Shown: positions 552 through 52,575 of the stretch, piece after piece
How the letters are laid out: the number at the start of each line of letters is the position of its first letter
Numbering within the stretch: position 1 is the first letter of the stretch
From: Fonticella tunisiensis
GTDB taxonomy: Bacteria; Bacillota; Clostridia; Clostridiales; Caloramatoraceae
DNA: 64,000 nt
Assembly (NCBI RefSeq): GCF_004364155.1
Contig: NZ_SOAZ01000002.1
Span: 1-64,000, forward strand
Direction: 5' to 3'
Notes under the pieces: generated by a model
Database searches by the model: none
What the model was told of the DNA's origin: nothing
What the model saw: the letters and a program-made list of their open reading frames with translations, nothing else
Made by a program: the position numbers and the translations under genes

Positions 552-662
552 ATTTTTCACTCATTACCTCCATTTCCGATTCGTTACAAACTTGCAGAAG
601 CATTAGCCTATTGTACTCTTCTTTTGCTGAGAAGTAGTGAAGATATAAATATATGAAATTAA

Positions 663-1005
663 TCTGTTGTGCTACTCTGAAAAGTACGTTGGAATAAAAA
701 TAGAAAATATTTACAGATCGACGCTGCGATAAAAAATACATTTCATTCACAAGTATGCTTAGCAAAGAAGTTCTAAGGCTCGGGCTGCTGACAAGCCAAG
801 TAAGCTTTTAAAACTCGCTTAGCTCAAACACCACGAACTCTACTTTGACTTCTCAGCTACCCACTCGCCAAGAACCTCTAGTTGCTCGCTAGAATAGTTC
901 GCTTCATATATTTTTTTCACAACGTCTTTTGAAAATAAAACTAGCTGCAGATGAATAATTGTTCACCAATATGAATGAAAATATCTTTCAGAGTAGCACA
1001 ACGCG
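663..1005. mobile_element. MITE-like palindromic element, copy A
   Basis: A 343-bp non-coding element between the tRNA operon and the dnaC terminator. Its ends are inverted repeats: GTTGTGCTACTCTGAAA reads inward from both ends (17 bp identical). It is flanked by TGAAATT at 654-660 and 1006-1012 (8 of 9 bp match if extended), which looks like a target duplication. Internal blocks (GCTGCGATAAAAAATA, GTTCTAAGGCTCGGG) are shared with copies near 16.3, 17.4, 38.9 and 52.5 kb. Its central 43 bp (787-829) are the exact reverse complement of 16471-16513 in copy B. It has no open frame of transposase type, so mobilisation in trans is assumed. Confidence 0.8.
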
Positions 1006-1062
1006 TGAAATTCACATTTGGCGGACGGCTGAGAAGGATTAATGACCTTCGTGTTACTTGTA

Positions 1063-16167: not shown

Positions 16168-16322
16168 AGGGCACCTCCATCTTCAGATATAACCTATAGT
16201 TATATCTTATATGTTTAATCTATATTATTCAAGTTAATAAAAATAAAGTTAAAATAAAGTTAAGTTGTCTAACTACTTAGATTTCCCATGAAAAACGAGT
16301 TGTTTATTGGGATGTAACTTAA

Positions 16323-16609
16323 CTTGTTGTGCTACTCTGAAAAGTTCATTGGATTATAAGTGGAAAGCATATACAGATCGACGCTGCGATAAAAAATATA
16401 TTTCATTCACTAGTACGCTTAACAAAGAAGTTCTAAGGCTCGGGATTTGAAAAATCAAAAACTTTCGTTTGTTTGAGCTAAGCGAGTTTTAAAAGCTTAC
16501 TTGGCTTGTCAGCTGTCCCGAGCCTTAGAACCTCTGTGCACAAGCGTAGTTGTGAGAGTAATATATTTTTTATCACAGCGTCTTTTGAAAATAAAACTAG
16601 CACAACGAG
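16323..16609. mobile_element. MITE-like palindromic element, copy B
   Basis: A 287-bp element with ends CTTGTTGTGCTA (16323-16334) and, reading inward from the right, CTCGTTGTGCTA (16609-16598). Flanks GTAACTTAA and TTAAATTAA (7 of 9 match) suggest a worn target duplication. The whole element is a long imperfect palindrome: GACGCTG(C/T)GATAAAAAATATATT occurs inward from both ends, and GTTCTAAGGCTCGGGA (16429-16444) pairs exactly with its complement around 16516-16531. The central loop (16471-16513) is inverted relative to copy A. It lies between the LysR gene and the flavodoxin-like gene and ends 40 bp before the latter's start. Confidence 0.82.
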
Positions 16610-16649
16610 TTAAATTAACAAGTTTATTGAAATTAGGAGGGTTTGTACA

Positions 16650-17354: not shown

Positions 17355-17390
17355 CTCTATATATTATTAATTTCGAGTCTACTAACTTAA

Positions 17391-17548
17391 CTCGTTTTTC
17401 TAGATAAATTTACAGAAAGGCGCTGCAATAAAAAACATATTTCATTCACCAGTACGCTTAGCAAAAGAAGTTCTAAGGCTCAGGATTTGAAAAATGTGAA
17501 TTTCATATATTTTTTATCGCCCCTTAGCCCCTGAACTATCACAACAAG
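17391..17548. mobile_element. MITE-like palindromic element, copy C (overlaps pepV)
   Basis: A 158-bp element nearly identical in layout to copy D. Ends are CTCGTTTTTCTAG and, inward from the right, CTTGTTGTGATAG. Flanks both contain TAACTTA. Inside are GCGCTGCAATAAAAAACATATTTC, TACGCTTAGCAAAAGAAG, TTCTAAGGCTCAGG, then GTGAATTTCATATATTTTTTATC, which complements the left block. Its right 35 bp form the 3' end of the pepV reading frame, including the stop codon. Confidence 0.82.
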
Positions 17549-18896
17549 TTAACTTATATATCGCCTTAGCATATATTTCTAAAGCAATAAACATATCCTC
17601 CAATACAATATGCTCATTGGGCTGGTGCTCTGTCTTTGTTCTACCCGGTAGAACTGCCCCAAAGGCTACGCAATTATCAATTGCTCTTGCATAGGTGGCT
17701 CCTCCTGAGGATATAGGCTCGGAAACCATATCCTTTGTTACCTCCCGGTATACACCAAGAAGGGTGCGAACTAAGAAATGATCCTTCGGGATATAGATTG
17801 GTTTCAACCAGTCATATTCTCTATAAGCCAGGCCATATTTATTGGCTGCTCTGCTTATCTTGTTTACTATTTCATCTTTTTCTATCGTCACTGGAATACG
17901 AATGTCGATGGACAGGGTTTCCTTTTCCTTTAAGCTTATCTTTCCAATATTGAATTTAAGCTTTCCGGAATCCTCATCTTCACAGGTGCCAAAAATCTTT
18001 GTAGCGAAAGGATCTTCCTGAATTTCACCAACAATGAATTCAATAGCTTTAGAAGTAATCCCTATGCTCTTCAAAGCTATTGCAAGTCTGTTTATTGCAT
18101 TAATGCCCTTTTCTGCGACCTGTGCATGGGCAGATTTTCCTAATACTTTTACACCTTTTTCTTTCAATTCATATTCATATTCATATCCCAGCTCTATGAG
18201 TTTGGCTTTCAATTCTTCTTGTTTATCTCCGGTATAAACGATGTTGTCCGGTACGGAATTAAAGGCATTACCTCCTTCTAGAAGGAGGTTAGTTTCGTTT
18301 TCTCCCTCCAAAACGATCTGAAGCAGGCCTTTTTCTGCATAAATAAGGGGGAATGTGGAATCAGGCGTGAATCCTGCTGTTGGTTTTTCCTCCTTCTCCA
18401 TATATTTTTTCATATCACGCCACAGGCTTTCCTCGTCAGTTCCAAAGATAAATCTAAGCCTTTTATTGAATGTTACGCCCAGGTTCATGAGGGCTTTAGC
18501 AGCATACACACATGCAAGAATGGGGCCCTTGTCATCCTGAGTTCCTCTTCCATATAACCTTCCATCTTCAATCACGGGATCAAAGGGATCGTGCTTCCAA
18601 ACATCAAGACTGCCAGGAGGGACAACATCAAGATGTCCTAATATACCTATCAGTTCGTCTCCTTGACCAACTTCAGCATATCCATAATAGCCTTCCGGAT
18701 CATAATAGGTTCTAAATCCTAATCCTTTACATATTTCCAGGGTCTTTCTCAATGCCTTATCAATATTTTCGCCAAAGGGATATTTTGTTGAATTTTGATC
18801 GATTATGCTGGGTATACTTACTAATTCCTTGATCGAGTGAATTAAATCACTTTTCAATGCTTCTAATTCTTTTTTTATTGTCCCATCTGTTAACAT
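17514..18896 (-). CDS. pepV: Dipeptidase PepV (M20 family) with repeat-derived C-terminus
   Basis: A 460-aa Zn-dependent dipeptidase of the M20A/PepV group. Metal and catalytic motifs: GHLDVVPPG, YGRGTQDDKGP (bridging Asp), FGTDEES (catalytic Glu), and GGATYARA near the end. A lid domain sits in the middle. It cleaves dipeptides in the cytosol. ATG 18896 is favoured over GTG 18914. The native C-terminus seems to run to AKAIYKL; the last 12 residues or so (LTCCDSSGAKGR) and the stop codon are encoded by MITE copy C, so an insertion replaced the original end. The catalytic core is intact, so activity is likely kept. Confidence 0.9.
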   Translation of the reverse strand: MLTDGTIKKELEALKSDLIHSIKELVSIPSIIDQNSTKYPFGENIDKALRKTLEICKGLGFRTYYDPEGYYGYAEVGQGDELIGILGHLDVVPPGSLDVWKHDPFDPVIEDGRLYGRGTQDDKGPILACVYAAKALMNLGVTFNKRLRFIFGTDEESLWRDMKKYMEKEEKPTAGFTPDSTFPLIYAEKGLLQIVLEGENETNLLLEGGNAFNSVPDNIVYTGDKQEELKAKLIELGYEYEYELKEKGVKVLGKSAHAQVAEKGINAINRLAIALKSIGITSKAIEFIVGEIQEDPFATKIFGTCEDEDSGKLKFNIGKISLKEKETLSIDIRIPVTIEKDEIVNKISRAANKYGLAYREYDWLKPIYIPKDHFLVRTLLGVYREVTKDMVSEPISSGGATYARAIDNCVAFGAVLPGRTKTEHQPNEHIVLEDMFIALEIYAKAIYKLTCCDSSGAKGR

Positions 18897-19066
18897 ACTA
18901 TTTGATCTCACCAACCTTCATAATTATTAGTATATTTTATTCCTTTTCCGAACCTCTATATGTTAACTTATTTTCCATATATTTTTACTTTCTGGGATTT
19001 TAATTTTTAGTTATTCTGTTTTTATTTTATATACTCTGAGTAAATTGTGCAAATGAATATGATTAA

Positions 19067-38813: not shown

Positions 38814-38848
38814 TTATTCTGTTATATCATAAATATAATTAATATTAA

Positions 38849-39005
38849 CTCGTTTTGCTGGATAAATTTACAGATCCGCGCTGCGATAAAAAATATATTT
38901 CATTCACCAGTACGCTTAGCAAAGAAGTTCTAAGGCTCGGGATTTGAAAAATGTGAATTTCATATATTTTTTATCTGCGCTCAGCCCTTGAACTAGCACA
39001 ACGGA
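38849..39005. mobile_element. MITE-like palindromic element, copy D
   Basis: A 157-bp element with ends CTCGTTTTGCT and, inward from the right, TCCGTTGTGCT. It is flanked on both sides by the identical 10-mer TTAATATTAA (38839-38848, 39006-39015), the best target duplication of the family. Subterminal arms GCGCTGCGATAAAAAATATATTTCATTCAC-like and its complement (GTGAATTTCATATATTTTTTAT...GCGC) make a long hairpin around TTCTAAGGCTCGGG. It sits between the cooS terminator and the liv promoter and appears not to disrupt either. Confidence 0.85.
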
Positions 39006-39081
39006 TTAATATTAAATATTACATAAAGTTCTAAAAATGAAATCATAAAAATAAAAACTTGCAAAAATCTTTAAAAAAGTA

Positions 39082-39446: not shown

Positions 39447-39530
39447 TTGGGAATTTCCACTGGACAGGATGAAGATGGTATTATTACTGGCATTTTATTA
39501 AATAAAAAAATATTTGATGGAAAGGGTTGA
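39447..39530 (+). CDS. Possible 27-aa upstream open frame before livK
   Basis: TTG 39447, with AAGGGGGG 6 nt upstream, opens a 27-codon frame (GISTGQDEDGIITGILLNKK, then IFDGKG) that stops 4 bp before the livK ATG. The good ribosome site and proximity would allow translational coupling with livK. It contains two Ile-Ile/Ile-Leu pairs but no strong regulatory codon run. No homologue recognised. Confidence 0.35.
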   Translation: MGISTGQDEDGIITGILLNKKIFDGKG

Positions 39531-52488: not shown

Positions 52489-52514
52489 AATCTCTTGTGG
52501 TGTTTTTGGATTTT

Positions 52515-52575
52515 AAAGGCGCTGCGATAAAAAATATATTTCATTTCACTAATACGTTTGTGCAAGGAAGTTCTA
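52515..52575. mobile_element. MITE-like element, decayed copy E
   Basis: GGCGCTGCGATAAAAAATAT-ATTTCAT at about 52518-52544, then AATACGTTTGTGCAAGGAAGTTCTA, match the left arm of copies A-D. The right arm and recognisable terminal repeats are missing. The surrounding 400-bp gap between degV and the M16 peptidase holds only this fragment and AT-rich sequence that I cannot assign. Confidence 0.6.

Follow-up and report, generated by a model that had tools for sequence, protein, structure and literature searches.

The window analysed here, the first 64 kb of contig C2 in a genome of 3.10 Mb (64 contigs), contains a palindromic sequence repeated at several places, and it raises the question of what kind of element this is, which transposase moves it and whether its interior has the same origin as its ends. 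An earlier note on this DNA had described five dispersed, MITE-like copies with shared internal blocks; all five were found, with the blocks present (Table 1). One left arm is common to all of them, and their differences in length come from a differing inside.

Table 1. Copies of the palindromic repeat in the 64-kb window
Feature	Position	Strand	Description
Copy A	662..1006	+	345 bp; ends ATCTGTTGTGCTA / TAGCACAACGCGT; flanks GAAATTA/GAAATTC (6/7)
Copy B	16322..16610	+	289 bp; long form, near-complete palindrome; flanks TAACTTA/TAAATTA (6/7)
Copy C	17390..17549	+	160 bp; apex-less, 157 class; perfect 7-bp duplication TAACTTA (7/7)
Copy D	38848..39006	+	159 bp; apex-less, 157 class; 8-bp duplication TAATATTA (8/8)
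Left arm of the conserved body in copy D	38878..38941	+	GCGCTGCGATAAAAAATATATTTCATTCAC...GCAAAGAAGTTCTAAGGCTCGGG; stretch matched in other genera
Copy E	52495..52575	+	decayed remnant; left arm of body retained

Copies in the window and forms in the genome

Each copy had been thought to fold into one long hairpin. The RNA fold is strong for copy B (z = -11.2) and moderate for copies A (z = -3.9) and D (z = -2.1), but the claim does not extend to copy C (z = -1.5). The apex module of copy A (782-830) is inverted with respect to that of copy B (16470-16518), over 49 nt that are 96% complementary and with the outer arms in the same orientation; either an inversion inside the palindrome or an exchange of arms could account for it. 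Copy C runs with its right end into the 3' end of ORF 17514-18914 (minus strand), and the last codons and the stop of this peptidase-like ORF come from the repeat. About 150 bp downstream of copy D begins a T-box leader (RF00230, 39154-39387, 97.7 bits), located ahead of the ORF at 39514.

Copies B and D, together with the 12-nt end, served as queries against the whole genome, and the neighbourhoods were then re-searched. At least 109 stretches of the family were found in 372 kb of sequence, 46 of them two-ended, and since later searches gave further copies outside these 372 kb the total for the genome is above 110. The 12-nt end alone was found at 97 sites (up to one mismatch), against 3 for the reversed-pattern control. 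The further copies for which the earlier note had suggested a search are present, more than 100 of them in 3.1 Mb. All 46 two-ended copies lie between genes and none interrupts an ORF. When the element and one duplication were excised in silico, we found only ORFs ending near the junction and no clearly disrupted gene.

Instead of the two size classes proposed before, there are three forms. Fifteen of the 46 two-ended copies have about 157 bp and 19 have 251 bp (the commonest class), the rest being mostly mosaics of 187-483 bp, and terminal and apical modules have been swapped among the copies. The 157-bp form is the 251-bp form minus the apical ~94 nt. As this apex is conserved in other genera (see below), the short form is the derived one, which supports the internal deletion, with loss of the body apex, already suggested in the earlier note.

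Boundaries and target duplication

Terminal inverted repeats and AT-rich flanking direct repeats had been recognised before, and both are real, but their limits have to be moved. Outside CTCG all 46 copies have A, and outside the right CGAG 44 of the 46 have T, so that the element is ACTCG...CGAGT and begins one base further out at each end. The next seven bases were identical on both sides in 23 of the 46 two-ended copies and agreed in at least six of seven in 39; randomly re-paired flanks gave 5.4 perfect 7-mers on average, with a maximum of 13 (2000 trials). The duplication has therefore 7 bp, with the consensus TAAWTTA. Because this consensus is palindromic it could be confused with an extension of the inverted repeat, and the test was made on the middle base, which is equal in a duplication and complementary in an inverted repeat. 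It was equal, i.e. in direct register, in 40 of the 46 copies. Besides, non-consensus duplications (for example TAAAGCA, TAATTCA or TAATTTT) flank both sides of single copies. The 10-bp repeat TTAATATTAA once assigned to copy D is actually the 8-bp duplication of Table 1, lengthened by TTA/TAA symmetry.

An IS982-family partner in the same genome

At C36:1174-2324 two convergent ends are found 1151 bp apart, with a transposase gene between them. This 1.15-kb IS has two more full copies (C1:1070-2212 and C39:503-1654, 97% identical) and two pieces at contig ends. The transposase frame is open in the C39 copy (315 codons, L093:611-1558), frameshifted in the C36 copy and degenerate in that of C1, and it belongs to the IS982 family (NF033520, E = 2e-75; PF13612). 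The IS is flanked by 7 bp as well, TAATTTA in C36 and TAACCTT in C39, and ACTCGTTGTGCTAGTTCA is common to the right end of the MITE and to one end of the IS. From the shared ends and the shared duplication we infer that this transposase would act in trans and move the MITE copies. Relatives that are 55-63% identical over the full length are found, for example, in Tissierella praeacuta, Clostridium punense, Clostridium sp. C2-6-12 and Defluviitalea phaphyphila, and those related IS982 elements with readable ends have ends of the same kind. None of the other genomes of the family that were searched, G016 (see below) included, contains a relative of this transposase.

The repeats are short, with 157 and 251 bp as the main sizes, and contain no ORF for a transposase, as stated before; they have the terminal inverted repeat ACTCGTTGTGCTA at both ends, they number more than 100, and their target duplication is of constant length (7 bp), in direct and not in inverted register. 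An autonomous partner with the same ends, the transposase source that the earlier note had suggested looking for, is provided by the 1.15-kb IS at C36, C1 and C39. All this supports the reading as MITEs.

The hairpin body in other genera

When copy D was compared with 226 genomes of the order, only G016, of another genus in the same family, gave a match, in the form of short matches at 81-83%. This genome carries at least 40 dispersed copies of a palindromic element in which the body is homologous and the ends are different. A covariance model of the core gave weak single matches in other genomes, with the same layout. The left-arm model (A4/R2), which is sequence-only, found 13, 8, 14, 20, 10, 11 and 4 matches in G042, G043, G053, G061, G072, G081 and G032 (genus g10), 7 and 17 in G129 and G130 (g22), and 4 and 16 in G156 and G160 (g30), that is, at least four copies in each of 11 further genomes besides G016, with best E values from 2e-6 to 3e-13 and leaving out of the count the single order-wide matches at E 0.001-0.01.

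We compared the body with a sample of 80 copies from other genomes. In four other genera of the order, repeats with multiple copies contain a homologous stretch of ~200 nt, which aligns throughout, from the outer stem (GATAAA...) through TTCATAAG, GCAAAGAAGTTCTAAGGCT and the apex AAACTCGC..CGCTCAAACAAAC to the returning arm CCAAGAACTTCTAATTGCTCGCT and the closing stem. For most genus pairs the scores were between 6.8 and 42 SD above dinucleotide shuffles (z 6.8-14.8 for the own body against other genera, up to 42 between other genera). Some one-to-one pairs were weak (z 1.2-2.3), namely some with the AT-rich form of g30 and copy B against g10, and these are connected via the remaining genera. 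The body is not derived from the IS982 element of its own genome and is distributed more widely than its ends.

The common structure obtained with RNAalifold has 39 pairs, of which 26 show changes in both partners; 91% of the cells are paired. As it was fitted to the same data, folds of single copies from the own genome were tested on the other genera only. With these, 67.7% of the cells pair for the fold of the C4 copy and 66.1% for that of copy B. The best of 200 shuffles reached 62.9% and 61.1%, respectively, and slid folds gave 32-48% (39-48% for the C4 copy). The excess over the shuffles is modest because of the AT-rich sequence, but it is consistent for folds from five different copies. 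Pairing in the body is kept through compensatory changes; part of the covariation may reflect arm-to-arm correction at the DNA level in palindromes, and not selection on an RNA. Rfam gave no credible match for copies from this genome and from nine others, no copy of the element appeared in plasmid and phage records (PLSDB, INPHARED), and three exact core patterns had no match in IMG/VR contigs.

Ends in other genomes

The ends joined to this body are of several kinds. In G129 (g22) the end is ACCTCTTGTGCTAGTTCA, of IS982 type, and one copy is flanked by a perfect 7-bp duplication, TACCTTA. G130, of the same genus, has GGGGCTGTCTCAAAATAT, of type GGGGCTGTCTCAAAAT, and no clear duplication. The end in G160 (g30) is ACTCAACTTTCGCAG, and most copies there have perfect duplications of 5-7 bp. 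G016 has CTGTAATTCGTAATTTA (71 sites, against 1 for the control) and duplications of ~9 bp, such as TTAAATTAT, perfect in L226. Finally, genus g10 has a TTTATAAATTGCGAATATAA-like end of weak symmetry and no clear duplication.

Ends were alike above shuffles among the own family, the own IS982 element and G129, between G160 and an IS4-family element, and, within a genome, between the two ends of G130 and between those of G016; the score of 19 for G130_L against g10_R, with a limit of 18, was taken as chance. The IS4-family element is located on an Enterococcus faecium plasmid (L358:782-2301; transposase NF049925, E = 1e-108), and it has the G160 end exactly on one side and with one mismatch on the other. 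The same end is found in a relic in a viral contig. For the end types of G130, G016 and g10 we found no autonomous elements. Two G016 ends 1291 bp apart were considered as one and rejected, since they enclose ordinary genes and no transposase. The G130 end GGGGCTGTCTCAAAAT presumably resembles those of IS1182-type elements; its one match in IMG/VR was in unrelated sequence, and a literature search gave nothing relevant. The outer ends of these different types are non-homologous, while the structured body persists.

Origin of the element

In the usual description a MITE depends on one parental transposon. In the present case the ends appear to be exchanged and the body to persist across genera and transposase families, and with this the switching of carriers and the retention of the body become testable questions. 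We consider it highly probable that the repeats are MITEs moved by an IS982-family transposase and that they carry as their body a structured, portable module which on more than one occasion has been joined to different IS ends. The transposase would recognise ACTCGTTGTGCTA(GTTCA), the end common to IS and MITE, by binding it, and would insert the element at AT-rich palindromic targets, of which 7 bp would be duplicated (TAAWTTA). The body would travel as a passenger between the ends, amplified by whichever transposase the host has. Template switching or gap repair, acting among abundant copies during transposition or replication, would most likely exchange the ends. With so many copies that resemble one another, such events could place the body between new ends, and the exchange of modules and the inverted apex among the own copies indicate that they occur. 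As an RNA structure the body may render insertions beside genes harmless, as an extruded DNA hairpin it may aid mobilisation, or it may be neutral. Over all genomes, insertions in sense downstream of a gene were in slight excess (38 vs 22), a weak and not significant bias that does not settle why the body is retained.

The likeness across genera would also be explained by vertical descent of an ordinary IS982 MITE whose ends diverged along with the transposases. The host genomes are indeed related (same order), IS982-type ends occur both in the own genome and in G129, and simple IS982 MITEs exist, as MITECca01 illustrates. We regard this as quite improbable, however, because the end classes are unrelated (one of them an IS4-family end, and with duplications of 7, 5-7 and about 9 bp) and because G129 and G130, within one genus, differ in the type of end while their bodies align closely; ends that co-evolve with one transposase are not expected to turn into those of another family.

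Other alternatives concern the body. Its conserved length of ~200 nt, the conservation of unpaired blocks (GCAAAGAAGTTCTAAGGCT, AAACTCG..CTCAAACA), the compensatory changes and the intergenic position of 46 of 46 copies would fit a structured RNA with a function, or a regulatory element (at transcript ends, for instance, or an insulator), that is kept by the host and only secondarily mobile. This seems unlikely to us, given that no shared gene neighbours were noticed, the orientation bias is not significant, apex-less forms are common in several genera and Rfam has no match, and the purging of harmful insertions predicts an intergenic location too. Somewhat less unlikely, although still doubtful, is that a functionless body, being an abundant repeat, was trapped again and again between IS ends as passive filler. 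The capture of filler is a usual account of how MITEs originate, and the body is very abundant in the genomes that carry it, but in that case decay would be expected, and conservation between genera is seen in the paired arms as well as in the unpaired blocks.

Returning to the portable module, we would tentatively see in it a class of mobile structured elements, with a hairpin body of ~200 nt whose fold is under selection and which repeatedly acquires unrelated IS ends (IS982, IS4, others), a proposal that falls short of being probable. To the same limited degree we can imagine that the body of this class is tied to no single transposase and spreads through related genomes, by analogy with the IStrons and their group I introns.

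Comparison with known elements

The precedent for the family in the window is MITECca01, an IS982-derived MITE that comes from ISCca4 and has 169 copies in a Cardinium endosymbiont (PMC9769881). In the same way, the repeats described here are short, have no ORF, carry the ends of an IS982 element of the same genome, exceed 100 copies and are mostly intergenic, and on that precedent the window family as such is one more IS982-derived MITE family. MITECca01, however, is confined to one strain and retains the subterminal bases of its parent (PMC9769881), whereas the body found here is unrelated to the IS and common to several genera with other ends.

The closest analogy for this are the IStrons, in which a group I intron body has been joined to IS200/IS605 and to IS607 ends, with multiple origins (PMC4227781). 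In both cases one structured body has ends from different transposon families. Unlike IStrons, the copies matched no group I intron in Rfam, and they contain neither a transposase nor an ORF for an IS200/IS605 or IS607 protein; their ends are those of DDE-type IS, with duplications, and they have only 150-350 bp. Similar in another sense are bcr1 of the Bacillus cereus group and the clostridial stem-loop families Clop-1 and Clot-1, dispersed repeats of ~70-170 bp with conserved secondary structure and, for bcr1, a mobile-element character (PMC2267715). The first was reported to be specific to one species group (PMC2267715), whereas the body here spans genera. The body may be identical with Clop-1 or Clot-1. 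With the terms tried, the literature search gave no MITEs described as having the same interior and different ends, and the apex sequences tested were absent from the full-text papers searched. The present analysis supplies an annotation model for a multi-copy repeat undescribed in Rfam, in PLSDB and INPHARED records and, under the terms tried, in full-text papers.

Variation at the apex

The apex of the body is occupied in many copies of G016 (L154, L155, L158, L162, L165) by a second palindromic repeat (GTAGGGAACGGTCTTGACCGTTCC...), always at a constant place. Some bodies of G130 (L325, L326, L329) have an extra insert of ~70 nt beside the apex (CACGGGGCAACT...AAGTTGCCCG...AAAAGCCATTTAGGCTTTTAA). 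In many copies (e.g. L297, L309 and L324) the unpaired apex AAACTCGC..CGCTCAAA is a mirror repeat, not an inverted one, and it is conserved across genera.
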